A model generated the notes under the pieces. It did no database searches and was not told the origin of the DNA. It saw nothing but the letters and a program-made list of their open reading frames with translations. A stretch of DNA of 64,000 nt from positions 70,012,392 to 70,076,391 of the forward strand of contig CM059559.1 of NCBI GenBank assembly GCA_030386875.1, written 5' to 3'. Origin of the DNA: Morinoia aosen. Lineage: Eukaryota; Arthropoda; Malacostraca; Amphipoda; Talitridae. A program made the position numbers and the translations under genes. This document shows positions 15,767-59,620 of the stretch, one piece after another (position 1 is the first letter of the stretch; every line of letters begins with the position of its first letter).

Positions 15767-16816
15767 ATGAATGCCGCTAGTGATGAACGTCGTAAAGAAT
15801 TCTTAGTACGTTCGGCTAACAAAAACGTAGGCGACTTCAATTCCGTAGTTACGAAACTAGTAAATGCTGATTTAAATTATTCATTTGACCAGGTTGTTCA
15901 AATCCTTGAGGACATTTACGTATCACGTGGAGAGAAGAGTATTCATGCATTAGCTTGCGACCTAAATGAGTTGAAATTAGTTAAAAATAATGCACTCGCT
16001 GCACAGATCGTGAATGCGTTTTCGAAAATAAGGAAGCTAACCGAGAGTATTCTTAATTCAAACTCACTAGGGTGGCAGCGCCACGCGTATTTTCAGAACT
16101 GCACGAATCAGGCTGAGTTAAAAAAATTTGTAGGCGACAGCATGTCGTACAGTTTGGCTTTAGCAATTTTAGGTCCCCTTTTCGATGAGTCGTTCGCGAG
16201 AAAAATATTTGAAACACAATTTTCCACTGCAGAGGAGCTATTAGCCAAGTTAATTTCCGCAGTGCGGAGTCAGAGCGAGTCCAAAAAGATTCTCGCGCAA
16301 AAGTATCATGTCAGAAAAGACAGTGAGAGTTACGTAGGTGAGGTGACTAGTGAATTCGAGGAAGTTTTGGAAGAGCCAGATCAAATCCAGGAGAACGAGG
16401 TGTACTACGGAAGTGTCGGAAATTACCGTAGGAATTTTCGATCAGGCGTACGTAGGATTGTTCCTAGGCCCTGGCTCGCACGGAATCCTCGCACGAGAGG
16501 ACGAGAGTTGAACAGTTATGTAGGTGATAGAGGAAATGGATCCTTAGAATGCAACATGATTAAATCAGATAGCGGTAGTTCTGGTTTTGTAGGAAATTCA
16601 GGAGGTAATTTAGGAAACTTTGAGTACAGATTTCAGAGAGGACAATTTCCGAGAGGATGTTTTGCGTGCGGCGGAACGCATATTGTAAAAAACTGTAGAG
16701 CGTCAGGTGCAGAGATTAGGAGTTATAAAGCGTATCTACGCGGTAGAGGTAGTTCTAATCGTGGAAGGAGTGAAGTCCATTGGGCAGAGAGTGAGTCAAG
16801 TAGTTTTTTAAACTAG
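15767..16816 (+). CDS. gag: Gag polyprotein
   Basis: The frame encodes 349 residues from the first in-frame ATG at 15,767. The N-terminal two thirds is helical-looking capsid-type sequence. A Gly/Arg/Asn-rich region follows, then a zinc knuckle CFACGGTHIVKNC near the C-terminus, spaced CX2CX3HX4C (one residue shorter than the usual CX4H) and flanked by basic and Gly-rich segments suited to RNA binding. Gag should assemble cytoplasmic particles and package the element's RNA. The stop codon TAG at 16,814 lies directly after a -1 slippery heptamer, so a fraction of ribosomes should continue into pol. No internal stops are present. Confidence 0.9.
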   Translation: MNAASDERRKEFLVRSANKNVGDFNSVVTKLVNADLNYSFDQVVQILEDIYVSRGEKSIHALACDLNELKLVKNNALAAQIVNAFSKIRKLTESILNSNSLGWQRHAYFQNCTNQAELKKFVGDSMSYSLALAILGPLFDESFARKIFETQFSTAEELLAKLISAVRSQSESKKILAQKYHVRKDSESYVGEVTSEFEEVLEEPDQIQENEVYYGSVGNYRRNFRSGVRRIVPRPWLARNPRTRGRELNSYVGDRGNGSLECNMIKSDSGSSGFVGNSGGNLGNFEYRFQRGQFPRGCFACGGTHIVKNCRASGAEIRSYKAYLRGRGSSNRGRSEVHWAESESSSFLN

Positions 16817-21075: not shown

Positions 21076-21777
21076 AAAGGCGATTCATTGGCCTGTATGA
21101 CGTTCTAACTAATCGACGAGTAACGAGTTACCCTTTTATCGTTGTTTTACCGTTTGTTATCAATAATGTTAAGGAATATAATCATAATTTTAGAAGACTT
21201 TTAACGCTATATGCAATATGCTTTGCGTTCATATTAATCTCAGTAATCAATGCGATGTATTTTTTATGTTAATCTTACTGTTGTGTTATGCTCAAGTTAT
21301 TAGATGAATGTTTAAGTTTTTACCCCGGAGGAATTTGTACTGTCTCGTTTAGCTGTCGCTAAGACGTTTCATTAATTTTTTTGCTCGAATTCACTCAGAC
21401 ATTCGCATTGCTGAATTGACAATTTAATTCGTAAACGTTTGAGCAGGCTGAGAAAAGAAATGGCTGAGCTTGCAAATCATAAGGCGAGATGCGCCAGAGC
21501 AGTCTCTAGCCGAGCTATTTTTATCTGTCTAGACTGTCGATGATCCAGAATGTTCGACGATCAGCAAGAATTTAAATTAAATTCATAAGACAGGTGTCTT
21601 GTCACCGGATATACATTTTTTTTCGATACGTTCAGCGTTTATTTTTTTTATGCGACACTATCGTGGTTGTTAGATGACTATTGTCAGACAACCGAGAGTG
21701 ATACCAAATTGTATGTTGTATTTAATTTTAATGTATGTAACGGCCATGCTAATAGTTTCTGTATCTGTTCCTTGCAG
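21076..21777 (+). other. Pol to ORF3 spacer
   Basis: No long ORF is present. It ends with a strong splice acceptor (TATCTGTTCCTTGCAG, AG at 21,776-21,777), which implies that ORF3 is read from a spliced RNA. Confidence 0.5.
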
Positions 21778-21784
21778 GGGCTGT

Positions 21785-22102
21785 ATGGAAAGGTTCCATA
21801 TGGGCAATCAGGTGTCAGTCATCGACGTGGAGAAGTTGTCTTCAGCTATTGCGAAGAACCATGGGCCAAGTGACGAGCTTTTCAAAGAATTGCTTAAGAC
21901 CAAATCCCGGGTGGACTACCTACCGGATACGGTGACGGACATAGTGACAATGATACTAGTCGTCACGACGATGATTTTAGGTGCGATGGTTTATTATACC
22001 AAACGTGCTCAGGAGTCGTTGGTTGATCGGGCCGATAGGCTTGAAGACTATCAGCTGCGCCGACTGCCCCGTGGGGGGCCCAGGGGGGAGCAGAACGTTT
22101 GA
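21785..22102 (+). CDS. Small third ORF with a transmembrane segment
   Basis: A 105-codon frame starts at the ATG just after a splice acceptor at 21,777; a second ATG at 21,800 begins MGNQVS. That fits the N-myristoylation pattern MGxxxS if translation starts there. The middle is amphipathic (VEKLSSAIAK, DELFKELLKTK). One strong hydrophobic segment (IVTMILVVTTMILGAMVYY) near residues 60-78 is followed by a basic and Pro/Arg-rich tail. In insect Ty3/Gypsy elements a spliced ORF after pol is often envelope-like. This one is far too short for an envelope and has no fusion-protein features, so I call it an accessory membrane protein of unknown role. The frame is also open upstream to 21,674. Confidence 0.5.
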   Translation: MERFHMGNQVSVIDVEKLSSAIAKNHGPSDELFKELLKTKSRVDYLPDTVTDIVTMILVVTTMILGAMVYYTKRAQESLVDRADRLEDYQLRRLPRGGPRGEQNV

Positions 22103-24640: not shown

Positions 24641-26010
24641 GTCTCGATACACTGTGTGTACGTCAATGTGTCGATACACTGTGTGTACGTCAATGTGTCG
24701 ATACACTGTGTGTACGTCAATGTGTCGATACACTGTGTGTACGTCAATGTGTCGATACACTACTGTGTGTACGTCAATGTGTCGATACACTACTACTGTG
24801 TGTACGTCAATGTGTCGATACACTACTGTGTGTACGTCAGTGTGTCGATACACTACTGTGTGTACGTCAGTGTGTCGATACACTACTGTGTGTACGTCAG
24901 TGTGTCGATACACTACTGTGTGTACGTCAGTGTGTCGATACACTACTGTGTGTACGTCAGTGTGTCGATACACTACTGTGTGTACGTCAGTGTGTCGATA
25001 CACTACTGTGTGTACGTCAGTGTGTCGATACACTACTGTGTGTACGTCAGTGTGTCGATACACTACTGTGTGTACGTCAGTGTGTCGATACACTACTGTG
25101 TGTACGTCAGTGTGTCGATACACTACTGTGTGTACGTCAGTGTGTCGATACACTACTGTGTGTACGTCAGTGTGTCGATACACTACTGTGTGTACGTCAG
25201 TGTGTCGATACACTACTGTGTGTACGTCAGTGTGTCGATACACTACTGTGTGTACGTCAGTGTGTCGATACACTACTGTGTGTACGTCAGTGTGTCGATA
25301 CACTACTGTGTGTACGTCAGTGTGTCGATACACTACTGTGTGTACGTCAGTGTGTCGATACACTACTGTGTGTACGTCAGTGTGTCGATACACTACTGTG
25401 TGTACGTCAGTGTGTCGATACACTACTGTGTGTACGTCAGTGTGTCGATACACTACTGTGTGTACGTCAGTGTGTCGATACACTACTGTGTGTACGTCAG
25501 TGTGTCGATACACTACTGTGTGTACGTCAGTGTGTCGATACACTACTGTGTGTACGTCAGTGTGTCGATACACTACTGTGTGTACGTCAGTGTGTCGATA
25601 CACTACTGTGTGTACGTCAGTGTGTCGATACACTACTGTGTGTACGTCAGTGTGTCGATACACTACTGTGTGTACGTCAGTGTGTCGATACACTACTGTG
25701 TGTACGTCAGTGTGTCGATACACTACTGTGTGTACGTCAGTGTGTCGATACACTACTGTGTGTACGTCAGTGTGTCGATACACTACTGTGTGTACGTCAG
25801 TGTGTCGATACACTACTGTGTGTACGTCAGTGTGTCGATACACTACTGTGTGTACGTCAGTGTGTCGATACACTACTGTGTGTACGTCAGTGTGTCGATA
25901 CACTACTGTGTGTACGTCAGTGTGTCGATACACTACTGTGTGTACGTCAATGTGTCGATACACTGTGTGTACGTCAATGTGTCCATACACTGTGTGTACG
26001 TCAATGTCTG
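24641..26010. repeat. 30-bp minisatellite with homogenised core
   Basis: The unit contains TGTGTCGATACACTACTGTG followed by TGTACGTCAG. At least 36 consecutive copies (24,841-25,920) look identical. Both edges carry 27-bp units that lack one ACT and end in CAA instead of CAG, and one copy near 24,780-24,812 has an extra ACT (33 bp). Because 30 is divisible by 3, several frames stay open for over 450 codons on both strands. These are consequences of the repeat and not genes. The array lies in what would be the 3' UTR of the multi-exon gene. Confidence 0.97.
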
Positions 26011-28127: not shown

Positions 28128-28445
28128 CTCCCTTTAACCATGACAAATATGTCCCAAGAGAGTAAAAAGGAAGGCACCATTTAGTATGGATTCGAATAAA
28201 GTAGAATCTATGCACAAATGCATAGAAACAATAAGCTAAGAAAGAAGCTCATGAAACAAGAAAAAGTTAAAAAAATTTGGTAATGAAAAACAAAACAATG
28301 AACCGAACTAATGATCCGTAACAAAACGAAAACCTTTTCTACCTCAACAAAAACGAAACCTACCTAACCTTTAGCTCGAGCCCTCACATAGTCCCCCTGG
28401 GAGCACAAATTCCCATAGATACAACAGTTCGATCCCCCTCAAAAT
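28128..28445 (-). repeat. Copy of the 364-bp dispersed repeat
   Basis: It begins GAGCCTCCCTTTAACC and ends CCATAGATACAACAGTTCGATCC-like. It matches the other copies over its length with scattered substitutions and small deletions. Confidence 0.75.
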
Positions 28446-29888: not shown

Positions 29889-29975
29889 TCCCTTTTTCTC
29901 AGAAGAGGGAGCAGGTAGAGTAGTGAGGTAAAAACCGTTAGAAAGCCAGTTTTATGCCATTTGTCAGTAGTCAAC

Positions 29976-31049
29976 ATGCCTTGGTCTGGTGAACATCGTG
30001 CTTTTGTTATTGAGCGGTTTATCGAATGCGGCGGTTCGATAATTGCTACACAACGTGCTTTTCGAATTCATTTCGGACTCGGGCTTCATGATCCTGTTCC
30101 ACATCACGCTACGATTAAAGTGTGGGTGTCAAATTTTAGACAGACGAGTTCAGCATTGAAAAAGAAGTCGCCTGGACGTCCCAGGACAGCAACAGGATCT
30201 GAAAACGTGGCCAATGTGAGAGCCGCGATTGAACGTTCCCCGCGTCGTTCGGCGCGAAAACATTCGCTCGCTTTGGCGATTTCCAACCGCAGTATTCGGC
30301 GCATTTTGCACCGGGACGTCAAAATGCATCCCTACAAAATGGTTGTTGCACAGGAGTTAAGTGAAAGGGATTTTGAAACCCGTACGAACCTGTGTCGCGA
30401 TCTCCGAGAACTCCCAAACGACGATGTTGTGCTCTTCGCGGACGAAGCCCATTTTCACCTTTGTGGTGCCGTTAACAGGCAGAATTTTCGATATTGGAGT
30501 GACGAAAATCCTCGAGAAATCCATCAGGAACCCCTCCATAGCCCAAAAGTGACTGTGTGGTGTGCTCTTTCCCGCCTAGGCGTCTGGGGGCCTTACTTTT
30601 TTGAAGAAAATGGGCAAACCGTAACGGTCAACAGCGAGCGCTATTGTTTCATGCTGGAAAATTTTCTTAGACCCAAAATGGAAGAAAATGGCGTGGAAAA
30701 TGTGTGGTTTCAACAGGATGGTGCAACCGCCCACACATCGCGACGATCAATGGACATTTTCAGGGAACTGTTTCCCGGTCGCCTCATTTCCCTGAGAGGT
30801 GATCTTGGCTGGCCGCCGCGCTCACCGGATCTCACTCCATGTGACTTCTTCCTTTGGGGTTACCTCAAATCGAAGGTTTACCAGCATCGACCAAGGACCC
30901 TTCTTGCTTTACGAAGGGAAATTGCTCGGGCAATTGAAGAAATTCCTGTGGAAATGACGGTGAAAGTCATGGAAAGCTATCGCGAGCGCCTAAATCAGTG
31001 TATCCGCTCCCATGGACGACATTTGAGTGATGTGCTTTTCAAAACTTAA
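29976..31049 (+). CDS. Mariner-type transposase (DD41D)
   Basis: The protein has 357 residues from the ATG at 29,976; the upstream in-frame TTG is not needed. The N-terminal half contains paired helix-turn-helix-type DNA-binding sequence joined by a basic linker with GRPR at residues 67-70. The catalytic core has D156 (FADEAHFHL), D248 (QQDGATAHTS) and D290 (LTPCDFFLWG). The last two are separated by 41 residues, which defines the DD41D (rosa-like) group of Tc1/mariner. The enzyme binds the terminal inverted repeats in the nucleus and moves the element by cut and paste into TA sites. Length and motifs are complete, so it could be active. A natural stop follows at 31,047-31,049. Confidence 0.95.
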   Translation: MPWSGEHRAFVIERFIECGGSIIATQRAFRIHFGLGLHDPVPHHATIKVWVSNFRQTSSALKKKSPGRPRTATGSENVANVRAAIERSPRRSARKHSLALAISNRSIRRILHRDVKMHPYKMVVAQELSERDFETRTNLCRDLRELPNDDVVLFADEAHFHLCGAVNRQNFRYWSDENPREIHQEPLHSPKVTVWCALSRLGVWGPYFFEENGQTVTVNSERYCFMLENFLRPKMEENGVENVWFQQDGATAHTSRRSMDIFRELFPGRLISLRGDLGWPPRSPDLTPCDFFLWGYLKSKVYQHRPRTLLALRREIARAIEEIPVEMTVKVMESYRERLNQCIRSHGRHLSDVLFKT

Positions 31050-33599: not shown

Positions 33600-34760
33600 A
33601 AACGGTAGAAACGGCAAACGCCCGAACGGCAGCCGCCAGACACACGGTAGCCGCCAAACACGCGGAAGCCGCCAAACACGCGGAAGCCGCCAAACACGCA
33701 GAGTCAGCCAGACACGCGGAAGCCGCCAGACACGCAAAAGCCGCCACACACGCAAAAGCCGCCAGACACGCGGAAGCCGCCAGACACGCGGAAGCCGCCA
33801 AACACGCGGAAGCCGCCAAACACGCGGAAGCCGCCAAACACGCAGAGTCAGCCAGACACGCGGAAGCCGCCAGACACGCAAAAGCCGCCAGACACGCAAA
33901 AGCCGCCAGACACGCGGAAGCCGCCAGACACGCGGAAGCCGCCAGACACGCGGAAGCCGCCAGACACGCGGAAGCCGCCAGACACGCAAAAGCCGCCAGA
34001 CACGCGGAAGCCGCCAGACACGCAAAAGCCGCCAGACACGCGGAAGCCGCCAGACACGCGGAAGCCGCCTAACACGCAAAAGCCGCCAAACACACAATAG
34101 CCGCCAAACACACGGTAGCCGCCAAACACACAATAGCCGCCAAACACGCGGTAGCGGCCAGACACGCGGAAACCGCCAGACACGCGAAAACCGCCAAACA
34201 CGCGGAAGCCGCCAAACACGCGGAAGCCGCCAAACACGCGGAAGCCGCCAGACACGCGGAAGCCGCCAAACACGCGGAAGCCGCCAAACACGCAAAAGCC
34301 GCCAGACACGCGGTAGCCGCCAAACACGCGGTAGCCGCTAAACACGTAAAAGCCGCCAGACACGCGGAATCCGCCAAACACGCGAAAGCCGCCGAACACG
34401 CGAAAGCCGCCAAACACGCGAAAGCCGCCAAACACGTGAAAGCCGCCAAACACGCGAAAGCCGCCAAACACACGGTAGCCGCCAAACCCACGGTTACCGC
34501 CAAACACACGGTTGCCGCCAAACACACGGTAGCCGCCAGACACGCGGAATCCGCCAAACACTCGGTAGCCGCCAAACACACGGTAGCCGCCAAACACACG
34601 GTAGCCGCCAAACACACGGTAGCTGCCAAACACACGGTAGCCGCCAAACACACGGTAACCGCCACAAAGACGGTAGCCCCCACACACAATTAACGCGGAC
34701 ACGCCACACACAATAGCCGCCACAAACGGTAAACGAGGACAAGCCACACACGATAGCCGC
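33600..34760. repeat. 18-bp minisatellite (GCCGCCAGACACGCGGAA type)
   Basis: Roughly sixty copies of an 18-bp unit with recurring variants: AAACAC for AGACAC, and GCAAAA, ACGGTA or GCGAAA endings. Variants cluster, with the ACGGTA type mostly at the right end, so the array grew in blocks. The length is a multiple of three, which leaves several frames open on both strands for up to about 300 codons. These are not genes. The array lies about 250 bp beyond the stop codon of the Rep-helicase gene. More degenerate copies continue to about 34,900. Confidence 0.95.
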
Positions 34761-35007
34761 TACAAACGAAAAGCGCGAACACGCCACACACAATAGCCAC
34801 CTCACAGGTTAAACGCGACACACACGCCAGCGCGACACACCCAGTAGCCGCAACACAAGATAGGCGCGACTCATCGTAAGCTCAACACGGCACAATAGGT
34901 ACAGTTCTCAAAAAGTATTCCACACAAAACAAACGTCTCCCGACGTGCACAACAAAGGCCATACTCAAGCCACCACACCTAGGAAAAAAGCCGTCAATCG
35001 GATCGAG

Positions 35008-35366
35008 TTACACATCATCGGCCACATTGGCGGTGCCAGGTGCATTAGCAACAACGGCTGGGGCTCGGCTCACGAGCTCACAACAATGCTTGAGCACCAC
35101 CTCGGTATAATCTCGACTAGCAATAAACCGCTCATGCTCCCTCGCCATATCAGCGAGTCTAGTGCGAGTCGTCCCTCTAACGCCCCCAGCGAGAGCCACC
35201 CAATCTTCGAAATAGCGTCTCCGCTCTATCGAGTTCAGGTGATCGTCACCAGTGCCAGCAAACCCTGTGGCAAATGCAAGACACACCCATGGCATTCCCG
35301 CTCTAAGCTCAGGATCACCTATGCTGCTGTTGATGTTGTACAACTCTTGACGGATGGCCTGCATTG
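35008..35366 (-). CDS. C-terminal GIY-YIG-like nuclease segment
   Basis: The end of the helicase frame contains GGFVYLFVSS and FRAGQ, which look like the GIY and YIG (here RAG) strands. The natural continuation is in another frame: MQAIRQELYNINSSIGDPEL, with the conserved helix Arg, then about 45 residues later SIERRRYFEDW with a candidate catalytic Glu. The segment ends at a stop at 35,008. GIY-YIG domains are single-strand-nicking or double-strand-cutting nucleases. The Tyr of YIG appears replaced and the junction is broken by a frameshift, so activity is doubtful. As a fusion to Rep-helicase this is unusual. Confidence 0.55.
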
Positions 35367-38300
35367 TCCAGCCCGAAACTTGCTGGGAAAAGTAGAGCTC
35401 ACAAACAAATACACGAAACCACCGTCAAGGGAGGGAACTTCGCATGCCAGTGGATTCATAAATGGCACATCAGCTGAGATAACCCTGGGTGACTCGTGTA
35501 GCACATCCAATTGTGACAAAATGTGCTCGACGTGTTCAGCACAGACGTCGGTTCCCCTCAACAGCCCCCTCATCGCTACCACAGTGTCCTCTACGGAACC
35601 AACAAAGGTTATATGGCCCAGTTCTTCCACACGCGATAGGAGAGTGAGGAGTTGCTCTCGCTGCCACAACGCATACTTTCGGTTCACTGAACTCACTTGG
35701 GTAGCAAGGCACGACAAGGTGTCCCCTAGGACCTTGTGTATCGTACAACACACATAATGTCGCAGCGGCCATTGCTCCCTCCTTGCTTTAGTCATGCCAC
35801 CTCCAACAACAACTGTGTTGGATACGTGACGACTCAATGATACCCGTTCCCAATTTTCTGGAATGCGCGCCACGTCCATCAATCGTTGCCCTGGGGGCAG
35901 TAGCCGACCTCTCACTCGCTGTTGGGAAAGCGGTACGCTGCTGTCCGGCAGACCTGTCACAACGACCAACTGTCCTTGGGAAAACCTCGGCATTTCTCGC
36001 CGGACGTGAACATTGTTGTACGTTACCCGCATGACGGCTCCAACAAACAACACCAACTCGCGAGCTTCGGCTAATTGATGGTCCAACTGACGCGACACGC
36101 ATCCTTCAGCGACAGCCCAATTGCTTCCCGAGCTTTCAACGGTGTCAACTGACACGTGCGTTTCATGCAGCAAGCCTGGGGTGTTCATCTTCGCGGTCAA
36201 ATAGCGTTCTATTGCTTCACGTTCGGCTACGCGCTTGCTAACTACGCGGAGGATGCCGTCAGGTACTTGCTCCCAAGTCGGTACAAACTGCTGCTCAGCT
36301 ATGACCCCTAGCACTTCCTCCACCTCGTCAACGCTCAGGACGGACTGTCTCATGAGAGCAAGAACTCGCTGCAAGCGAGCGTCACGTCGACTGCGGACGT
36401 AATGGTGGAGGTCAAGTACACAAAAAACTGTCATAAGCTGAGCAGACAGCCAGATACCAGCACCCTCAACGGGAGGCAATTGGCGCGGGTCACCAGACGC
36501 AATCATGAGAACACCGCCAAATGGGACGGGATTGCCGCGCACGCGTCTCAGTACCACATCCAGAACAACTAAGAGGTTTACAGACAATATGCCGATCTCC
36601 TCAAAAATGAGCACATCCAAGCGCTTGAGGAGAGCAAGTCGCACAGTCTTTCGACACAAGTTCAGCAAACATTTCTTGGTGGTGATATTGGGCGTCTCAA
36701 GAACACACTTCGCTACTTGGATGCCGAAAAGCAAATGGATGTGCTCGCCTCCCAACATACGAGCTCTTTCAGATGTGACAGCTATCACGTATGTCTTCAA
36801 GCCTTTCGCCATTGCGTAAGCGCACCCGGTCATCAGGATATGCGTCTTGCCAGCACCAGGAGGACCCAACAGCAGCGGGAAGCGGACAAAGGCATCTCTT
36901 GGATAAACGAAAGCATCTATTGCAGCCTTTACGTGATCTAGTGCGCTTTCCTGCTCTGCGAATGATTCGTCGCTTTGGTTTTCAACGCGCGCCAGCCTCG
37001 GATTGTACGCCACCGGCCTTCCATCTCGCAGCGCTTCATCATCAGGCAATTGCGGCAAATCCATAGCTGAGAGCGCGTCGACCACATTGTTGCGCATCAA
37101 CCTCTCCACGCCTGCCAACTTCTCCTCAGCACGCTCCTTTATGGCACGGTAGGTCCCGAGCGGCATCGACTCGTACGGCACGACTCGACGAGCCATCAAC
37201 TCTTTGCACTTCTCCAGGCACACTGCAACCAAGCGCTTAAAAGTGCGCGCACCAATCGAATAGTAAAGAAGTTGTTCGTGCACGAACTTACGGACGAGAG
37301 ACACAGCATCTGCCTCGGTTGGATTGTTGGCGTCAGGGATCAGTCCTACAAGCTCCAGCGAGTGCAAAAGACTGGGACACGAGTACACTTCCAGCTCCGT
37401 GTCAAATGTTCCCATGGACAAAAGGACGTGAACGATCCAGCGCTCAAAGCGCTCAGGACTTACGGGGGAGAACACAACGATGCATTCCTTCTCGTGCTCC
37501 AGTGAGACAAAGCGTCGAAGAAAAGCAGAAGGCACCGCAGCACCCACTTCGCGTTCCAAATCGCGAAGGAGTCCAGCCATCTCAAGTGCTGACGGCGCCC
37601 ATTCCTCACCAAGACCTTCAAAATACTCCCTCACCTCCGACAAGTACCGCACTCTCACACGCACCAGCTTGCACCGGCCATCGATCCAAGGGCTCTCAGC
37701 CAGAACTGGCGAAACATGAAACTGCTTGCAAAATTCAAACACAAACCACTTGAAATAGGTCTCTAGTTTCTGAATTGCACGCAACTCGGGAGGTCGCACA
37801 CTGAATGACGTCGTGCGGTCGACGTGATAAAACGAGTTCAAACTGTCTCGCATCATCACCTGTTGATTGTGGTTCCACATACGCCAAGCAGGGAACCCGT
37901 AACGACTTCTAACGCACTGCAGCGACCCATCCTCGTGCACGAACTTTCGCAAAGCAACCCTTCCCTGCTTGTAAACCGCGCGCCGGAACTCAGGTGGCTC
38001 TGTGGAGACCTCCACGAACTCCATGTTAGTCAAAATGTAGGGCAATTCTAGCGAGAACCAAACCATTTCACACAGTGAAATTTCTCGCGCAATCGGTTCA
38101 AGGTCACCGGCACGTACTTTTCGCTCGGCTATTGCAGCCCCAGGGATTTTGGCATTGTACAGCGGCCTCGTTTCGACCTGCACCACACCAGGAGCACTGT
38201 CCTTCGAAGTGATTATGACGTCACGCTTTTCATCAACTCCACTAATGTACTTGCACATGAACGAATTGGTCATTCGTCGGTCGAAAACTTGTACATTGAT

Positions 38301-41300
38301 TACGGACCGACAAATGACCCACAACGCAGGCACCACAGGAACGCTCGAAACGCCTAACATAGCTGGGTACCGCCATCGACCAGCTATGAGCTCTTCCGCT
38401 AGGCGCAGGATGTTGTCATCGTCTCTGTACGCCAAACCGATCTCTTCGAACATCAAACAATCCTCGTCATCGTACAACATGTAGTTAGGCGCAGGATCAA
38501 AAGAAGGCTCGTGAGCAACAGGATGCCGAGGAACGCGGCACACAAAAGTGCCGTCCCGAGTCCGCTTCCGACAACGAAACTTAGCATTGAAACAGTCGTG
38601 TTGCGTCAGCATCTCGCAAAGGTCACCAAGCTCCCATAACTCCTCCATGTCTTCAACTAACCCTTTCCTCAACAAGGTGTCATAATCGGTGCCATATTGC
38701 TCAGAAAACATAAGGGGGCAGATGTTACAAATTCGGTCCAATTTTGTAGGCAAATCAGCCCCGGGCTGGAGGGAAATACCAGCGTGCACATGCGGCCTGT
38801 TGCCCAGAGCACCCTTGTCTTGGAACTCGAAACGAGCCCAGTAAGAGCGAACGTCGCCTAGAGGCTTCTCGGGGCTATGCAGAATGACATCAAAAAACTT
38901 CTCGACCCACCGTGCCCAGACACGAGACATTAGCACAACCATGTTCTGCAACAAGTTTTCGAATTCCTCACTGTCCTCGGGATGGATTGCTTCCGCAGCC
39001 GCACGGATCACTCGAACGCCTACTGTGTCTTTCTCATTAAGCGTCAGGGTTACGAAATAATCCCATGGAGCTTTGCGGACCAACGCTGCCAATCTTTTCA
39101 ACTCTCGACGTGAATCGATGTGGTCATTCATGCTATCAGACCTCCTGTTCTCCACATGCACACCAGGACGAGACACATGCTCGAGCCCCTTCTTCACAGC
39201 CACAGAACATGTGTTCTGGCGCATGCAACGGTTCAAACTCGTGTCGAAAGTGAAGCCAAGATAGCAATGATCGCGGGACGTTAAACTCAAGCTATCACGC
39301 AGTCGAATCCGCAAATGGTCATCGAGGCTGGCTACTTCTCCAATTACACTCTTCTTAACAGGCTCAAAATACATGGCCGCAGGTATTGCCCCCACTACGG
39401 AACCCTTGATTGATATGAAGAAAATGGTGGGAAATAAATCGCCTTCTGGATATATTAAAGGCAAATGACGATCGGGCACAGTCGAGTACAAAAACTGCAT
39501 TATACGCTGATGACAAACAGGAGGTTTCCGATCAAAGGACACGCGCTCAAAGCTACGGAGGAAATCTTTCATCAAGTAATGTGATGAAACGCTGCCCGTG
39601 CTGACATCATACGTAGGTGGCAAACGGCGGGCTGCTGTAGGGACAAAAGGATCAAAATCTTCGATATTCACCAGCATGTCATCGTGCTCCACCAGTGCAT
39701 CTTCAGCACCGTCTACTGCCTCTGCATCCTCAAGGAAGTCGTCGAATGCGTCAATCGCACCGACAACTTCTTCCACCTGTTCAGCTCGCTCTGCGACAGC
39801 AGCACCTGTCACAGAACTAGGGACTCGTCTCTCCGCAAGAGGCCGTTGCTCCACAAAAGTAATCGTTGGCAACTGTAGAAGCTCTCTGCCATGTGCCAGG
39901 CAAACGCCAACATTGCAGACTGCACAGCTTCCATAGCAGTTGCAACAACGCCACCGTATGGGCTTCAAACAATCACCGTGACAACAGCGAAAATAACTCC
40001 CTTTGTACTCCTTCAACAGGTAACAATGCCGGTGCACCGAACACCGCATGCGTGTCTGGCCCCCTGCCAAGTTGATGAACTCGTCTTTGTTCAAACAGAC
40101 ATTGGCATTCGGAGTCACGTACACGAGCACATGCCACGGCCCAAGTCCAGGAACATTCTGTACCGACTCTCGCCTTGCTCTTCGTGTAAGCCATGCGTTT
40201 CGTTCACGCCATCGAAAGGTGAAATTTACGCAGTACCGATTCTCCTCTAAGACTACTTCTCCAGCCAACATTAGAAAATGACTGCCATTAGACGTCTCTG
40301 TCAAAATGTCCCTTCTGAGAGGATCTTCATGCGCATCCACCAAGACAATAGGAGCGTCAGTGTTCCTCACAGCCACGTCGAGCTGAGCACGAGAGTGGAT
40401 TGCAACCACAGAAACGTTGCAACAATGCCGCAAAGCCTGAACTGCGACAATACTACAATTCAATTGCACAGGAACTGGATTCTCCACCTGGAGTTCATTG
40501 AGCAGTCGCTCTTCACACTGCAGCACTCTGCGAGACAAGTGCGTCTTCTTCGAACCAGTTACTATCGATTTGATGCAAGCGTTCAAGTTGCGGTGCAGCA
40601 CACAGTTTATTTGGCTCCACATTCGCTCTAAAAAGCTTCGATGCAATGGCTGACAATGGATGAGGCTAACTAACACAAAATGCACTACGCATCCTGATGC
40701 CGCATTATCTCTTTGACGATATTCAGGGACTTGAATGGATTCCGCTTTACTCTCATCACCAGGATGAACTATCTGAACACAATCAAGATGAAGTCGACGT
40801 TCTACAGCACGTACACGATGATCTTCCCCCTGTTCACCTTGCATTCGGCGAATAAAGGTTTTGAACTGGTGTGTAACTTGACCAATGTCTAAAAAAGTTC
40901 CAGTGTCAATGGCAGCCCAAACACTCTCGCGTAAATTTTGGTAATCTTCCCGAGTACCTTCAATCATATCCCAAGCCCAGTAATCGTCCATTGTTATGTC
41001 CTCGATAAAACTCGCCAATATCTCTGGCCGATTTCGTAGGGTGACACCATAAGCATCGTTCAACTTTGGATTTCGGCACTGCATATCCACGACAGGCCGA
41101 GGCGACAACTTGAAAGTGGCTAATCCAAAATTGCCCTGTTGCTTTAAGACAGCATACGAGGTATTCTTCATATGAGTGTGACCGTGTTTCATAAGATTGG
41201 GAGTCAACACGACCGGCGCCAATACGTCAGGTACTTGCGGAGACAGATTCTCAAAAACAGGATGTCGAGGCACGTGCAAAAACCTACAACGACCATCTCC

Positions 41301-41765
41301 ATGAATGGCAGGGCCACACATAACGATGCACAGACCCTTCTGCCGGTCAACATGGACGGACGGCGACACTAACCATTTCTCAAATTCCCGAAACTGGTAC
41401 GGCCACTCAGGACGTGCTCCCGCAAAGTACGATTTGTCTGCTCCAAAAGAGACAAAATTCGAACACAATAAAGCCAAGTAATGGCTGGCCGGTAACAACT
41501 TCATCTTCTCTCCCATCTTGTCATCAAGGAATAACGTGCAACCCATCATGCAAACAATCGAGGGCACAGGCGCCTCTTCACGTGCGAGGAAAGTTTTGTG
41601 CAACAGATACTCGCTAAACGTCTCCAAAAGACGGCGCCTATCTCCAGTAATGTCCACGAAAAGCGGATCTGTGTGCCAAAATCTTCGAATGCGGGGCGAT
41701 AACTCAACAAGAGCGTACATTTCTCTGATTGGTATCGGTAAAAATTGTACACATCCCCACTTCAA
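35319..41765 (-). CDS. Rep (HUH) and Pif1-like helicase segment
   Basis: This is an open segment of 2,148 codons. Using 41,765 as codon 1: a Cys/His cluster near 572-625 (many CXXC pairs); a Rep-like region with DYFVTLTLNE near 900; a His-hydrophobic-His site in RPHVHAGISL near 992; a Cys/His stretch ending CRVPRHPV near 1,070; and candidate active tyrosines in YGTDY near 1,025 or NYMLY near 1,092. The helicase part has Walker A LLGPPGAGKT near 1,635, the Walker B-like VLIFEEIG near 1,717, GDPRQLPPV near 1,758, and late motifs including YVCCTIHKVLGD. This order, Rep then superfamily 1B (Pif1-like) helicase, is that of Helitron transposases, which nick and unwind donor DNA during rolling-circle transposition in the nucleus. 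The Rep tyrosines are not certain. Confidence 0.75.
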   Translation of the reverse strand: MKWGCVQFLPIPIREMYALVELSPRIRRFWHTDPLFVDITGDRRRLLETFSEYLLHKTFLAREEAPVPSIVCMMGCTLFLDDKMGEKMKLLPASHYLALLCSNFVSFGADKSYFAGARPEWPYQFREFEKWLVSPSVHVDRQKGLCIVMCGPAIHGDGRCRFLHVPRHPVFENLSPQVPDVLAPVVLTPNLMKHGHTHMKNTSYAVLKQQGNFGLATFKLSPRPVVDMQCRNPKLNDAYGVTLRNRPEILASFIEDITMDDYWAWDMIEGTREDYQNLRESVWAAIDTGTFLDIGQVTHQFKTFIRRMQGEQGEDHRVRAVERRLHLDCVQIVHPGDESKAESIQVPEYRQRDNAASGCVVHFVLVSLIHCQPLHRSFLERMWSQINCVLHRNLNACIKSIVTGSKKTHLSRRVLQCEERLLNELQVENPVPVQLNCSIVAVQALRHCCNVSVVAIHSRAQLDVAVRNTDAPIVLVDAHEDPLRRDILTETSNGSHFLMLAGEVVLEENRYCVNFTFRWRERNAWLTRRARRESVQNVPGLGPWHVLVYVTPNANVCLNKDEFINLAGGQTRMRCSVHRHCYLLKEYKGSYFRCCHGDCLKPIRWRCCNCYGSCAVCNVGVCLAHGRELLQLPTITFVEQRPLAERRVPSSVTGAAVAERAEQVEEVVGAIDAFDDFLEDAEAVDGAEDALVEHDDMLVNIEDFDPFVPTAARRLPPTYDVSTGSVSSHYLMKDFLRSFERVSFDRKPPVCHQRIMQFLYSTVPDRHLPLIYPEGDLFPTIFFISIKGSVVGAIPAAMYFEPVKKSVIGEVASLDDHLRIRLRDSLSLTSRDHCYLGFTFDTSLNRCMRQNTCSVAVKKGLEHVSRPGVHVENRRSDSMNDHIDSRRELKRLAALVRKAPWDYFVTLTLNEKDTVGVRVIRAAAEAIHPEDSEEFENLLQNMVVLMSRVWARWVEKFFDVILHSPEKPLGDVRSYWARFEFQDKGALGNRPHVHAGISLQPGADLPTKLDRICNICPLMFSEQYGTDYDTLLRKGLVEDMEELWELGDLCEMLTQHDCFNAKFRCRKRTRDGTFVCRVPRHPVAHEPSFDPAPNYMLYDDEDCLMFEEIGLAYRDDDNILRLAEELIAGRWRYPAMLGVSSVPVVPALWVICRSVINVQVFDRRMTNSFMCKYISGVDEKRDVIITSKDSAPGVVQVETRPLYNAKIPGAAIAERKVRAGDLEPIAREISLCEMVWFSLELPYILTNMEFVEVSTEPPEFRRAVYKQGRVALRKFVHEDGSLQCVRSRYGFPAWRMWNHNQQVMMRDSLNSFYHVDRTTSFSVRPPELRAIQKLETYFKWFVFEFCKQFHVSPVLAESPWIDGRCKLVRVRVRYLSEVREYFEGLGEEWAPSALEMAGLLRDLEREVGAAVPSAFLRRFVSLEHEKECIVVFSPVSPERFERWIVHVLLSMGTFDTELEVYSCPSLLHSLELVGLIPDANNPTEADAVSLVRKFVHEQLLYYSIGARTFKRLVAVCLEKCKELMARRVVPYESMPLGTYRAIKERAEEKLAGVERLMRNNVVDALSAMDLPQLPDDEALRDGRPVAYNPRLARVENQSDESFAEQESALDHVKAAIDAFVYPRDAFVRFPLLLGPPGAGKTHILMTGCAYAMAKGLKTYVIAVTSERARMLGGEHIHLLFGIQVAKCVLETPNITTKKCLLNLCRKTVRLALLKRLDVLIFEEIGILSVNLLVVLDVVLRRVRGNPVPFGGVLMIASGDPRQLPPVEGAGIWLSAQLMTVFCVLDLHHYVRSRRDARLQRVLALMRQSVLSVDEVEEVLGVIAEQQFVPTWEQVPDGILRVVSKRVAEREAIERYLTAKMNTPGLLHETHVSVDTVESSGSNWAVAEGCVSRQLDHQLAEARELVLFVGAVMRVTYNNVHVRREMPRFSQGQLVVVTGLPDSSVPLSQQRVRGRLLPPGQRLMDVARIPENWERVSLSRHVSNTVVVGGGMTKARREQWPLRHYVCCTIHKVLGDTLSCLATQVSSVNRKYALWQREQLLTLLSRVEELGHITFVGSVEDTVVAMRGLLRGTDVCAEHVEHILSQLDVLHESPRVISADVPFMNPLACEVPSLDGGFVYLFVSSTFPSKFRAGQCRPSVKSCTTSTAA

Positions 41766-42030
41766 TAACGAAACGGCGAGAGGTAAGGAACGAATATATT
41801 ACGGCCGGCCATGCGTGAGACCACTTAGGACGCCTATTCCCACTAACATACGAGTGGCAATGCCAACACACTCCGTCGCCCTCACGCAGATCTGTAGTGT
41901 CACCGTAATGTCTTCGAACAAAATTCACAGGCACAGGCCGCAGAACAATATGATAATCATCCACAGAAATTCGGTGACAACAGGCGCACCTCTCGATATC
42001 GTCTTCCATAGGTTCTTCTGAAATCACAGA
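41704..42030 (-). CDS. Cys-rich linker segment of the Rep-helicase gene
   Basis: This open segment continues the frame of the zinc-knuckle region once the retroposon is disregarded: both sides share the duplicated codons TCT GTG ATT TCA. It encodes two CXXC pairs (CACC and CWHC) about 38 residues apart, which could form a zinc finger, with an ATG at 42,012 as a possible new start. After FLTSRRFVI (about 41,770) the frame shifts by one base, and the good coding sequence continues in the frame of the large downstream segment. Confidence 0.6.
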   Translation of the reverse strand, partial: SVISEEPMEDDIERCACCHRISVDDYHIVLRPVPVNFVRRHYGDTTDLREGDGVCWHCHSYVSGNRRPKWSHAWPAVIYSFLTSRRFVIEVGMCTIFTDTNQRNVRSC

Positions 42031-42031
42031 T
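42017..42031 (+). repeat. 15-bp target duplication (left copy)
   Basis: TCTGAAATCACAGAT; the second copy is at 42,396-42,410. Both copies lie in the same reading frame of the split gene. Confidence 0.9.
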
Positions 42032-42395
42032 TAGATTATTAGATTATAAGATAGTTTAAGCCTTCCTAACCGCTGCAAAAATAGAGCGTATCGAAGAGAG
42101 GAAGGAGGAAGGCACCATTCGGTATGGAGATAAGAAAATGAGGAATCTATGCAGAAAGGGCATTGAAACAGTAAGATGGGAAAGAAGTTCATGAAATAAG
42201 ATAAAAGTTGAAGAAGAGAGTCAGAGGTGCTGAAAAACAGGACAGTAGTGAACCGAAAAAAGGTGGTCCTTAACATAACAAAAACATTTTATTTCAACAA
42301 AAAGAAGGCCTACCTAACTCTCAGCTCGGGCCCTCACATTTTTCCCCTGGGAGCGCTAATTCCCATAGATACAATAGTTGTATCCCCCTGAGGGG
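42032..42395 (-). mobile_element. SINE-like retroposon (364 bp) inserted in the Rep-helicase gene
   Basis: The insert is bounded on both sides by TCTGAAATCACAGAT, a perfect 15-bp target duplication. Its sense strand (minus) starts with a small palindrome CCCCTCAGGGG, then GATACAACTATTGTATC, and ends in an AT-rich tail with repeated ATCTAATC words, the layout of a LINE-mobilised SINE. No Pol III A/B boxes were clear. Similar copies occur at 26,345, 28,128, 29,565, 46,304, 46,733, 52,255 and 62,687. The insertion ends the zinc-knuckle frame with about twelve foreign codons. Confidence 0.85.
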
Positions 42396-45007
42396 TCTGA
42401 AATCACAGATGCTGGAGCCTGAGGCACATCAGTGACTGGAGACTGCAACGCACCAGATGGTGACGCTTGCAATGCAGGAGACTGCGCAAGCGACCGAGCA
42501 GCAAATAGCTGAGGTGACGCAAACGCATCATGCTCACGAGGCTCCCGCGACGGTGACGCAACTGGCGACCTAGACACGTCTCCCGTAACTTGCCCCACAC
42601 CCACAGGACATGTTGGCCGCTTGTGTCCCTCTTGATTACAAATAGAGCAAATCTGAACCCTCCCCTGCTTCTGGGGCACATCAACTGGTAAAGGCTGCGT
42701 CACATCAGGAACTGGAGGCTGCAACGCACCAGATGATGACGCTTGCGACGCGGGAGACTGCGCAGCCGAAGGAACAGCAAAAAACTCAGGTGACGCGAAC
42801 GCACCACGCTCCGGTGACGCAACCGGCGACCTCGGCACGTCTCCCGCAACTTGCCCCAGCCTCACAGGACAGGTGGGCCGCTTGTGTCCCGGCTGATTGC
42901 AAAACGAGAAAATGTGAACGATCGCCCGCTTTTGTGGCACATCTGAAGGATGCGGCACATCAACTACTGGGGGCTGTGGCACATCTGCTTGGGGCTGGTG
43001 AACATCAAGTACTATAGACTGCGCCACATCAAGGACTGAAGGCTGCAAAGCACCTGATGGTGACGCTTGCGATGCAGGGGACTGCGCAGGCGACCGAACG
43101 GCAAGTAACTGAGGTGAAATGGACACTCTACGCTCAGGGCGCTCCCGCAGCGGTGACGCAACCGGCGACCAAGCAGCAGGTAACTGAGGTGAAACAAACG
43201 AACCACGCTCACGGCGCTCCCGCAACGGTGACGCAACCGGCGACCTTGGCACGTCTCCCGAAACTTGCCCCAGCCTCACAGGACATGTGGGCCGCTTGTG
43301 TCCCGGCTGATGGCAAAATGTGCAAGTGTGAACCCTCGCACGCTTCTGGGCCACATCAAATACTGGGGACTGCGACACAAGTGATAAAGGCTGCGACGCA
43401 CCAGATGTTGACGCTTGCAACGCGGAAGACTGCACAGGCGACCGAGCTGCAGGTGGCTGAGGTGACGCGAACACACCACGCTCACGTAACTCCCGCAACG
43501 GTGACGCAGCCGGCGACCTCGACACGTCTCCCGCTAATTGCCCCAGCCTCACAGGACAAGTGGGCCGCTTGTGTCCCGGCTGATGGCAAAATGTGCAAGT
43601 GTGAACCCTCGTTCGCTTCTGTGGAACATCAAATAGTGGGGACTGCAGCACAACAGGTGATGGAGGCTGCGACGCACCAGATGTTGACGCTTGCGATGCG
43701 GGAGACTGCAGAGGTGACCGAACAACAGGTGGCTGAGGTGACGCGAACACACCACTCTCACGCAACGGTGACGCAACCGGCGACCTTGGCACGTCTTCCG
43801 CAACTTGCCCCAGCCTCAAAAGACAAGTCGACCGCTTGTGCCCCGGTTGCTTGCAAAAGGAGCAAATCTGAACCCTCGCCCGCTTCTGTGGCACATCAAA
43901 TACTGGGGACTGCGACACAACAAGTGATGGAGGCTGCGACGCACCAGATGTTGACGCTTGCGACGCGGAAGACTGCAGAGGTGACCGAACAACAGGTGGC
44001 TGAGGTGACGCAAACACACTACGCTCACGTAACTCCCGCAACGGTGACGCAGCCGGCGACCTCGACACGTCTCCCGCTAATTGCCCCAGCCTCACAGGAC
44101 AAGTGGGCCGCTTGTGTCCCAGTTGATTGCAAAAAGAGCAAATGTGAACGCTCGCCAGCTTCTGGGGAACATCTAAAGGCTGCACCACATCAATTGCTGG
44201 AGGCTGCGGCACACTATGCAATGGCGCCCGAATTACACCTGGCGATGGAGGCTGCAACGCACCAGATGGTGAAGCCTCAGCCCCAATCGGCGAACGCACA
44301 GCTGCAACGAGTGGTGAAGCAGACGCAACCAATTGCTGAGGTGCAGGTGACGCACGCGCTGCAGGCGACTGCGCAGGCGATCGAACGGCAGGTTGCTGAG
44401 GTGACGCGAACGCACCACGCACAGGACGCTCTCGCAACGGTGATGCAGCCGGCGACCTTGGCACGTCTCCCGCAACTTGCCCCAACCTCACAGGAAATTT
44501 TGGCCGCTTGTGGCCCGGCTGTTTGCAAAAGGAGCACGTCTGGATTCTCGCCATTTTCTGGAGAGGTTCTGCGCCCGCAGCTGAACAAACGTCCCTACTA
44601 TGCTCCCCACTACCGCATCCATCGCACGCCGCGGATGACGTTCCCACTTTCCCAATGACAGAACCCACACCACCGACAGCGCCAACAGAACCTACGCTAA
44701 CGACAGCGCCAACGGAACCCACACCACCGACAGCGCCAACAGAACCTACGCTACCGACAGCGCCAACGGAACCCACACCACCGACAGCGCCAACAGAACA
44801 TACGCTACCGACGGCGCCGACGGAACCCACGCCACCAACAGCGCTTACGGAACCCACTCTACCACTACCTGTTCCCACGCTACCGCTAACGGAAGCCGCG
44901 CTACTGCTGACACTCTCTACATCAGAAGAATCAGCGTGATAATTTGGGCAAGTTCTCTTATTATGGCCTTTTTGGCCACAACATGAACAGATTTTGCGTT
45001 TTCGCAT
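42356..45007 (-). CDS. N-terminal segment: repeated CCHC zinc knuckles and Pro/Ser linkers
   Basis: The segment has 883 codons from the ATG at 45,007, which follows a splice-acceptor-like TATTATTTTTTTTCAG, so a 5' non-coding exon is likely. Eight zinc-knuckle units of the form CX2CX4HX4C occur (CSCCGQKGHNKRTC first); two are damaged (one lacks its last Cys, one its first). Each knuckle is followed by a similar stretch (VRLGQVAGDV, then SPVASPLRE), so the region grew by duplication of a module of about 80-130 residues. A Gly/Ser/Val repeat (GAVGSVGSV type, 44,650-44,880) lies after the first knuckle. CCHC knuckles bind single-stranded nucleic acid. The last dozen codons and the stop derive from an inserted retroposon, so the natural continuation is lost. 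Confidence 0.7.
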   Translation of the reverse strand: MRKRKICSCCGQKGHNKRTCPNYHADSSDVESVSSSAASVSGSVGTGSGRVGSVSAVGGVGSVGAVGSVCSVGAVGGVGSVGAVGSVGSVGAVGGVGSVGAVVSVGSVGAVGGVGSVIGKVGTSSAACDGCGSGEHSRDVCSAAGAEPLQKMARIQTCSFCKQPGHKRPKFPVRLGQVAGDVPRSPAASPLRERPVRGAFASPQQPAVRSPAQSPAARASPAPQQLVASASPLVAAVRSPIGAEASPSGALQPPSPGVIRAPLHSVPQPPAIDVVQPLDVPQKLASVHICSFCNQLGHKRPTCPVRLGQLAGDVSRSPAASPLRELRERSVFASPQPPVVRSPLQSSASQASTSGASQPPSLVVSQSPVFDVPQKRARVQICSFCKQPGHKRSTCLLRLGQVAEDVPRSPVASPLRESGVFASPQPPVVRSPLQSPASQASTSGASQPPSPVVLQSPLFDVPQKRTRVHTCTFCHQPGHKRPTCPVRLGQLAGDVSRSPAASPLRELRERGVFASPQPPAARSPVQSSALQASTSGASQPLSLVSQSPVFDVAQKRARVHTCTFCHQPGHKRPTCPVRLGQVSGDVPRSPVASPLRERRERGSFVSPQLPAAWSPVASPLRERPERRVSISPQLLAVRSPAQSPASQASPSGALQPSVLDVAQSIVLDVHQPQADVPQPPVVDVPHPSDVPQKRAIVHIFSFCNQPGHKRPTCPVRLGQVAGDVPRSPVASPERGAFASPEFFAVPSAAQSPASQASSSGALQPPVPDVTQPLPVDVPQKQGRVQICSICNQEGHKRPTCPVGVGQVTGDVSRSPVASPSREPREHDAFASPQLFAARSLAQSPALQASPSGALQSPVTDVPQAPASVISDPSGGYNYCIYGN
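44650..44880 (-). repeat. 27/54-bp coding tandem repeat in the zinc-knuckle segment
   Basis: Units alternating ACACCACCGACAGCGCCAAC and related 27-bp blocks encode the Gly/Ser/Val-rich GAVGGVGSV pattern on the minus strand. Confidence 0.85.
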
Positions 45008-45223
45008 ATCTGAAAAAAAATAATAACAATTATAATACACATTAAATTGCAAGTAAATTATTGCCATACACTACCAAATAAAATAAAAAATAGAACGCTA
45101 AATCGAAAAAAATGACAACCGAACACGCAACGAAACAACGCACAATAAAAAACAACAACATTACAAGCTGTTTATATATTCACAGTTCATTAAAAAATGT
45201 AAACGCGCGACGATCAACAAAAT

Positions 45224-45760
45224 GTATGCGCGCGACGATTATAACAAAATATAAGCGCGCGACGATTATAACAAAATATAAGCGCGCGACGATTATAACA
45301 AAATATAAGCGCGCGACGATTATAACAAAATGTAAGCGCGCGACGATTATAACAAAATATAAGCGCGCGACGATTATAACAAAATATAAGCGCGCGACGA
45401 TTATAACAAAATATAAGCGCGCGACGATTATAACAAAATATAAGCGCGCGACGATTACAACAAAATATAAGCGCGCGACGATTATAACAAAATATAAGCG
45501 CGCGACGATTATAACAAAATATAAGCGCGCGACGATTATAACAAAATATAAGCGCGCGACGATTATAACAAAATATAAGCGCGCGACGATTATATCAAAA
45601 TATAAGCGCGCGACGATTATAACAAAATATAAGCGCGCGACGATTATAACAAAATATAAGCGCGCGACGATTATAACAAAATATAAGCGCGCGACGATTA
45701 TAACAAAATATAAGCGCGCGACGATTATAACAAAATATAAACGCGCGACGATTAAAAATC
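45224..45760. repeat. 27-bp minisatellite upstream of the giant gene
   Basis: About twenty copies of a 27-bp unit containing GCGCGCGACGATTATAACAA then AATATAA. Copies are nearly identical (variants: ACA for ATA, ATC for AAC). Each unit couples a CpG-rich palindromic half (GCGCGC) with a TATA-like half. It lies 220-750 bp upstream of the first ATG of the giant minus-strand gene, so it could act as a repeated promoter or enhancer. The + strand frame across it (from 45,112 to 46,014) is open only because the unit is a multiple of three. Confidence 0.95.

Positions 45761-46268: not shown

Positions 46269-46300
<32 letters not shown>
46268..46300 (+). repeat. (ATT)n microsatellite
   Basis: About eleven TAT/ATT triplets directly beside the tail side of a dispersed-repeat copy, as expected if the microsatellite grew from the retroposon's AT-rich tail. 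Confidence 0.9.
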
Positions 46301-46303
<3 letters not shown>

Positions 46304-46650
46304 ATATAAGAAAGTTTTAACCTCCCTTAACCACGACACAGGTGTTCCAAGAGAGGAAGGAGGAAGGCACCATTTATTATGGAGTTGATGGAACTCGGAA
46401 TCTATGCACAATGTGCACAGAAATAGTAAGCTAAGAAAGAAGTTCATGAAACAAGAAAAAGTTGAAGAAGAAAGTAGTAGGAGCTGAAAAACAAGGCAGC
46501 AGTGAATTTAAGAAAAATGGTCCACAACAAAACAAAACCTATTCCATTTCAACAAGAAGGAAGCCTACCTAAAGTTTAGCTCGGGCCCTCACATAGTCCC
46601 CCTAGGAGCGTTAATTCCCACAGATACAATAGTTGTACCCCCTGAGGGGC
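46304..46650 (-). repeat. Copy of the 364-bp dispersed repeat
   Basis: Full-length or nearly so, from AAGAAAGTTTTAACCTCCC to CCCCCTGAGGGGC. It preserves both the terminal small palindrome and the tail side. Confidence 0.85.
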
Positions 46651-46732: not shown

Positions 46733-47036
46733 GATTAGATTATTAGTTAGTTTAAGCCTCCATATCCTCAACAAATGAGATCCAAAGGGAGGAAGGAAGA
46801 AGGTACCATTTAGTATGGAATTAAGGGAACGCGGAATCTATGCAGAAAGGGCATAGAAACAGTAAGATGAGAAAGAAGTTCATGAAACAAGATCAAAGTT
46901 GAAGAAGAAAGTAGTAGGTGCTGAAAAAACAGGACAGCAGTGAACCAAAAAAAGATGGTCCGTAACAAAACAAAAACCTATGTTATTTTGGCAAAAAGAA
47001 AGCCTATCTAACCTTTAGCTTGGGCCCTCACATTGA
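46733..47036 (-). repeat. Copy of the 364-bp dispersed repeat, 5'-truncated
   Basis: It starts at the tail side (AGATTAGATTATTAGTTAG) and stops after GGGCCCTCACATTG, so it lacks the terminal palindrome. 5' truncation is typical of target-primed retroposition. Confidence 0.85.
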
Positions 47037-58764: not shown

Positions 58765-59620
58765 TGTCAGGTTCACGTCCGGGTGTCCTGTATGGTTTGC
58801 CGAAAATCCATAAGTTAGACTTTCCATCTAAATTTCAATTTCGTCCTATTTTTGCTGCAGTGAATACGCCTAATTTTAACCTTGGTAACTCAACTCAATT
58901 TGTTAACGAGATAACATCGTGTCGAAATGCTGATAAAGTAAATATGGCTTCGTTTGATATTGAAAGTTTATTCACAAATATTCCACTTGCAGAAACCATC
59001 GAAATAATTATATATTCCTTGTTTGCTTTGCCTACTGATACAGTTTTAGGCCTAGGCAAATCTTATTTTAAGACGCTTCTCGAACTGTCTGTTATGAACT
59101 CTATATTTGTGCTTGCTGGCAATTTTTATAAACAAATCGAAGGCCTGAGGTCTTCGATGGCATGGGTCTTCCGTTATGACCCACATTTGCAAAAATTTTC
59201 ATGTGTCACTGGGAATAAAAATGGCTGGCCGATTGCCCAGTGGAATTTAAACCAGAATTTTATTGCCGTTACATTGATGACACGTTTTTGTTGTTTCGTG
59301 ATCCAAATCATGCTCAAATGTTCAGGGACTATTTAAATGAGAAACATTCATCAATAAAATTTACAATCGAAATTGAGAATAATGGCCCGTTATCTTTTTT
59401 GGACTCAAAAATTACTCGAGTAGGTAAAGCTTTCACTTCTTCAGTTTTTCGTAAGGCTACTTTTACTGGATTGGGCAAAAGTTTCTACAGTAACTTTAGT
59501 AGCTATAGATTTAAAATTAATGCGATTAAAACCATATTGAATCGTGCCTACAACATTTGTTCTAGTTTTGTGGATCTGCATGCTGAATTTAATTTTTTAG
59601 TCTCATTTTTTTTGTAAAAA
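58765..59620 (+). pseudogene. Penelope-type reverse transcriptase, frameshifted
   Basis: The frame enters near 58,765 with GVLYGLPKIHK, a Penelope hallmark. Then come ASFDIESLFTNIPL (motif A with its Asp) and a damaged region near 59,190-59,260, where the frame changes. Next are YIDDTFLLF (motif C, catalytic Asp pair) and PLSFLDSKI. A second frameshift occurs near 59,610, after which GFPSSIVHARIKKFL continues. The N-terminal part of the protein is absent, so the copy is 5'-truncated as well as broken. Confidence 0.9.

Follow-up and report, generated by a model that had tools for sequence, protein, structure and literature searches.

We analyzed a 64,000-nucleotide stretch of the genome of the amphipod Morinoia aosen (GenBank assembly GCA_030386875.1, contig CM059559.1, positions 70,012,392 to 70,076,391 of the forward strand; here, the window), focusing on a large minus-strand gene that encodes a Rep nuclease and a Pif1-type helicase. 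Four consecutive minus-strand open pieces span positions 35008-45067. From the 5' end of the gene, these are a zinc-knuckle open reading frame (ORF) of 903 amino acids (42356-45067), whose last codons fall within an inserted repeat; an N-terminal Cys box piece of 107 amino acids (41704-42027), followed by a frame change; the main ORF of 2148 amino acids (35319-41765); and a C-terminal piece of 118 amino acids (35008-35364), which lies in a different frame from the main ORF and holds the second part of a GIY-YIG nuclease domain and the C-terminus. Measured in 500-bp steps, the G+C content of the gene block is 44 to 60%, compared to 33 to 40% in the 2.5 kb 5' of the block. A preliminary description, made from the sequence alone, had treated the block as one coding region of about 3,200 codons. 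The long minus-strand open segments are there, but they are interrupted by a 379-bp insert and two frame changes and do not form a single region.

The insert separates the knuckle part from the rest of the gene and has a 15-bp duplication on its two sides (42396-42410 and 42017-42031). Because diverged copies of the same segment lie elsewhere in the window (46734-47034, 83%; 46295-46649, 80%; 28156-28439, 77%), we interpret it as an interspersed repeat that inserted into the gene (42017-42410, minus strand) rather than an intron. The reading frame is identical on either side of the insert, across the 15-bp duplication. The two frame changes lie at the boundary between the 107-amino-acid piece and the main ORF and inside the GIY-YIG domain. 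The window gene cannot yield a single protein, and the copy is defective. Whatever caused the frame changes, the copy is dead, because it carries the insert, a Phe in place of a Rep Tyr, and replacements of two nuclease residues.

Three protein searches, which returned 7, 7, and 8 overlapping rows, gave 18 distinct predicted proteins related to the gene (P0001 to P0018, 1295-2583 amino acids). This number is a lower bound, as one search scored only the 7989 candidates sharing most words with the query. The main ORF is 34 to 36% identical to seven relatives over 2107-2185 columns and 27 to 36% identical to P0004, P0006, and P0011 over shorter stretches; it shares 64% identity over 424 amino acids with P0007, which comes from the amphipod Hyalella azteca. 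Four pattern scans of viral contigs matched 2, 41, 1, and 2 stretches, none of which encodes a relative, and none of 27 pattern matches in prokaryote genome contigs was a relative.

The Rep (HUH nuclease) region was modelled at 38016-39218 (minus strand, as are all features of the gene). Within it lies the HUH motif RPHVHAGISL (38769-38798), which the preliminary description had already pointed out; its HxH is kept in all 18 relatives, and the motif reads PHGH in P0011. The Pfam family Helitron_like_N matches the window with 29.2 bits (cut-off 28.9), Helraiser appeared for the Rep model in a second comparison, made with VIA-align, and the Rep is an HUH nuclease of Helitron type. The Rep proteins of Helitrons are characterised by two tyrosines. 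All 18 relatives retain both; in the window copy, unlike in canonical Helitrons such as Helraiser, the YxxxY site reads FMCKY (38247-38261), with the first Tyr replaced by Phe, so that the family has the tyrosine pair and this copy does not. C-terminal to Rep in the same protein is the core of a Pif1-type helicase (36462-36872; Pfam PIF1, E 7.2e-12), as had also been described, and PIF1 reaches its Pfam cut-off in 16 of 18 relatives. By its Rep and its helicase, the window element belongs to the Helitron superfamily, which agrees with the Helitron plan suggested earlier.

The first part of the GIY-YIG domain (GGFVYLF...FRAGQC, 35361-35423) was located by alignment of the relatives and by a profile that we built from nine relatives, out of 14 proteins having the domain. 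When the two parts were read through with an X at the frame change, this profile scored 36.4 bits on the window (best of 1000 shuffles, 7.4); on the C-terminal piece alone it scored 20.5 bits (best of 1000 shuffles, 5.1). Among 661 six-frame window pieces of at least 40 amino acids, the two GIY-YIG pieces take the first place (20.2 bits) and the second (7.2 bits), although the second barely exceeds an unrelated piece (6.5 bits). The C-terminal piece is 37% identical to P0010 (E 5e-5, from a search against 11 proteins with composition correction off). GIY-YIG nucleases carry the GIY and YIG motifs and conserved Tyr, Tyr, Arg, His, and Glu residues; in nine aligned relatives, Y11, Y23, R33, H37, N38, and E80 are invariant. 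In the window, YIG has become RAG and HN has become IN, with the first Tyr, the Arg, and the Glu retained. Judged from this alignment, the nuclease of the window copy has lost catalytic residues.

In PDB, the nine-relative profile matches SLX1 (E 6.5e-12) and, more weakly, bacterial UPF0213 proteins. The comparison with the nuclease of Penelope elements, made in the preliminary description, is thus unsupported, with the limit that our own comparison included no Penelope nuclease. NCBIfam gave only weak matches to the nuclease (group I intron endonuclease in four of nine members, best E 0.0045), and so did PHROGs (GIY-YIG homing endonuclease in one of nine, E 0.03; unnamed PHROGs to 4e-5). Eleven of the 18 relatives have GIY-YIG at the Pfam cut-off (P0002, P0003, P0004, P0008, P0009, P0010, P0011, P0012, P0013, P0015, and P0016), and three have it below the cut-off of 22.6 bits (P0001, 19.8; P0014, 17.0; P0017, 22.1). 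Distances in the nuclease agree with distances in Rep-helicase: a Mantel test over 14 proteins gave r 0.61, a value reached by none of 5000 permutations, and a reduced set of 10 proteins gave r 0.53, reached by 1 of 5000. The permutation counts are not strict probabilities because related proteins are treated as exchangeable. We found no match to an AP endonuclease in the window pieces (Pfam, E<=1) or in any of the 18 relatives (E<=0.1).

The preliminary description overlooked a further domain in the middle of the main ORF, at about 40059-40748, which our structure model identifies as a USP-fold pseudo-deubiquitinase-like domain. The model matches USP and PAN2 structures and has the USP fold; Pfam alone found no domain in this region. 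With the Cys-box and His-box positions placed where we presume them to be, the box Cys is present in four of 11 aligned rows (the window, P0004, P0005, and P0010) and a His stands in the presumed His-box column of P0001, P0002, P0008, and P0009, none of which has the box Cys. Catalytic Cys and His therefore never occur together in one row among the 11. The window itself shows the Cys and an Asp-x-His (DAH), and the relatives do not keep the DAH. A domain of this kind would serve in protein binding. We also considered the middle domain as a VTD deubiquitinase and dropped this candidate, since the motif is not conserved among the relatives and the structures that the model matches are USPs. Next to the USP-like domain, the alignment columns reveal a conserved Cys/His-rich module (39882-40049), which probably binds zinc.

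At the N-terminal end, we counted nine units of CX2CX4HX4C type (42608-44989), of which seven are complete and two have one Cys replaced, rather than the eight CCHC knuckles counted earlier. The ratio of nonsynonymous to synonymous differences per site (pN/pS), pooled among seven of the nine units, is 0.65 for 44 codons and 0.48 for the 24 codons that surround the knuckle, which we take as a mild sign of former constraint at the protein level. The knuckles would bind single-stranded DNA. The 107-amino-acid Cys box piece matches seven of the 11 relatives then in hand, the best being P0005 (45% identity, E 1e-21). P0005 has one CCHC knuckle upstream of its Cys box in the same protein, which supports one long protein; by the pattern that we applied, the other 17 relatives have no knuckle.

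We built a maximum-likelihood tree of the window protein and its relatives, in which no known Helentron was included, the end branches are long, and support is moderate. P0007 is sister to the window protein (support 100/100), and this closeness to an amphipod protein would by itself suggest a crustacean source for the window. These two group with P0006 and P0005 (93/95). Both rows in which the nuclease is degenerate fall in this group, as do two of the three rows that lack it. In the window and P0006, the YIG Tyr is replaced by a basic residue and the His by Ile. Only the His change is particular to these two among 16 rows aligned, because P0013, outside the group, also has Lys in place of the Tyr; the Tyr change thus arose more than once, which makes the state shared by the window and P0006 a weaker proof of a single loss. 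The likeliest course is loss of the catalytic site in a common ancestor, with the domain since retained in some other function or slowly decaying. P0005 and P0007 may lack the domain for reasons in protein prediction. Elsewhere in the tree, P0012, P0015, P0016, and P0017 form a distant branch with GIY-YIG (100/99); P0017 represents 380 member sequences and may be common in some environment. In P0011, an OTU-like stretch follows the GIY-YIG domain (residues about 2335-2375, 17.8 bits, below the cut-off of 23.3).

The sequence data establish the identity, order, and co-occurrence of the domains and the damage to this copy. We consider it very probable that the window gene is a defective copy of a Helitron-like transposon, the transposase of which had zinc knuckles, a USP-fold pseudo-deubiquitinase, Rep, a Pif1 helicase, and an SLX1-like GIY-YIG nuclease. 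The overall interpretation offered in the preliminary description is partly supported. In Helitrons, one strand is nicked and held by Rep and displaced by the helicase, after which a circle forms and inserts. We infer each catalytic step of the mechanism proposed here for working relatives of the window copy: Rep would nick one strand at the element end and hold it through a tyrosine, the helicase would strip the nicked strand off, and Rep would then close the circle and insert it. SLX1 is a small host repair protein and a structure-specific endonuclease; in the window family, in contrast, the nuclease domain sits at the end of a transposase. As SLX1 proteins are the solved structures nearest to it, we propose that the GIY-YIG domain would cut flaps or branches that arise from strand transfer, acting on branched DNA left at the target or the donor, and that it would take over the function suggested for the Helentron AP endonuclease.

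Several results weigh against this interpretation. We did not find the ends of the element: the flanks share no exact inverted repeat of at least 10 bp and contain no perfect hairpin with a stem of at least 8 bp, and no direct repeats are shared between them at the lengths tried. With Foldseek alone, nothing matched the Rep model significantly (no hit below E 0.7). Helitron_like_N reaches the Pfam cut-off in only six of 18 relatives, with 15 of 18 listed at E<=0.1. For GIY-YIG, Pfam found no match in the window copy even at E<=10 with both pieces read through, so that the GIY-YIG-like C-terminus of the preliminary description is recovered by the profile of relatives and not by Pfam. Among the relatives, P0013 has Lys for the second Tyr, P0014 has no aligned Glu, and four of 18 are without a normal GIY-YIG domain: P0006 has a degenerate one, P0005 and P0018 end before the domain, and the model of P0007 departs from the others there.

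Concerning the family as a whole, we see an even chance that it is an old, widespread, separate rolling-circle lineage that uses an SLX1-like GIY-YIG nuclease, gained a single time, in place of the Helentron AP endonuclease, and that the window lineage has since silenced the nuclease, keeping the domain. An alternative is that the element is an ordinary Helentron/Helitron2 member that lost or swapped its endonuclease locally, the GIY-YIG domain being a functionless chance capture. The degenerate or absent nuclease in the window group fits this alternative, as do the C-terminal nuclease and N-terminal zinc motifs that Helentrons also have (PMC4067079). We nevertheless regard it as unlikely: across the tree, 14 of the 18 relatives have a GIY-YIG listing, the nuclease distances agree with those of Rep-helicase, and AP endonuclease is listed in none of the 18 (E<=0.1), with the limit that the tree was built without known Helentrons.

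The structure of the gene raises three other possibilities. The knuckle block and the Rep-helicase block could formerly have been two genes, as in Helentrons with extra ORFs, which would fit the lack of knuckles in 17 of 18 relatives; we find this improbable, since P0005 joins a knuckle to the Cys box within one protein and the reading frame ahead of the insert is continued behind it across the 15-bp duplication. There is a small but somewhat greater chance that the frame changes are assembly errors and that the copy is intact except for the inserted repeat, because the pieces flanking each frame change align to relatives nearly gap-free. The inserted repeat and the losses of the Rep Tyr, the YIG Tyr, and the His do not, however, depend on the frame changes. 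Domestication as a host gene, in place of a transposon copy, would account for a 2148-amino-acid main ORF that remains open, but we consider it very improbable, given that the inserted repeat and two frame changes interrupt the gene and that the Rep Tyr and nuclease residues are lost.

Tandem arrays adjoin the 3' end of the gene (33627-34821), and a 27-bp tandem array adjoins its 5' end (45194-45754). A retroelement on the plus strand (15737-22102), which we take to be of Ty3 type, has a pol ORF (16837-21075) with protease, reverse transcriptase, RNase H, and integrase (Pfam), preceded by a gag-like ORF and accompanied by a small ORF (21674-22102), both without a Pfam match. A pair of inverted repeats (632-1911 and 3171-4452) is 1.28 kb long and 97% identical. 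A transposase-like ORF (29961-31049, plus strand), presumably mariner-like, contains a DUF4817 helix-turn-helix domain. Two overlapping ORFs (58797-59617, plus strand) have no convincing Pfam match and are reminiscent of a Penelope-type reverse transcriptase. A 30-bp satellite (24651-26007, about 45 copies) is open in several frames on both strands.

Helentrons are already known as Rep-helicase transposons whose protein ends in a nuclease. Helraiser is not known to have a GIY-YIG domain. Helentrons resemble the window element in combining Rep and a Pif1-type helicase with a C-terminal nuclease and N-terminal zinc-finger-like motifs, and Thomas et al. proposed that their fused AP endonuclease nicks a single strand in a target T run (PMC4067079). 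The window family has instead a GIY-YIG nuclease nearest to SLX1; because the AP endonuclease is missing, the window element is not a Helentron by definition, although it may work like one. These groups are defined by their termini and insertion site as well, which for Helentrons means integration into T runs, subterminal inverted repeats, and a palindrome at the 3' end. Other Helentrons carry a deubiquitinase-type domain of VTD or OTU type on the Rep-helicase protein (PMC9741609), whereas the fold in the window family matches USP/PAN2. Penelope-like elements also have a GIY-YIG nuclease within a transposable element (PMC6431247), but they are retroelements, and we found no reverse transcriptase family in the window pieces of the gene (Pfam, E<=1) or in the 18 relatives (E<=0.1). 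In the portion of the open-access literature covered, which did not extend to Repbase entries, we found no Helitron with a fused GIY-YIG domain; one may have been reported elsewhere.

How Helitrons cut the second strand and complete insertion is, as far as we know, an open question. A family whose GIY-YIG nuclease, similar to a structure-specific repair enzyme, occupies the position of the Helentron endonuclease makes this question testable in vitro. If our reading of the lineage is true, fusing a branched-DNA nuclease to Rep-Pif1 would represent another route by which rolling-circle integration can be completed. On more than one occasion, rolling-circle transposons may have taken up an additional nuclease, and they appear to carry deubiquitinase folds repeatedly, with OTU and VTD published and USP in the window family.
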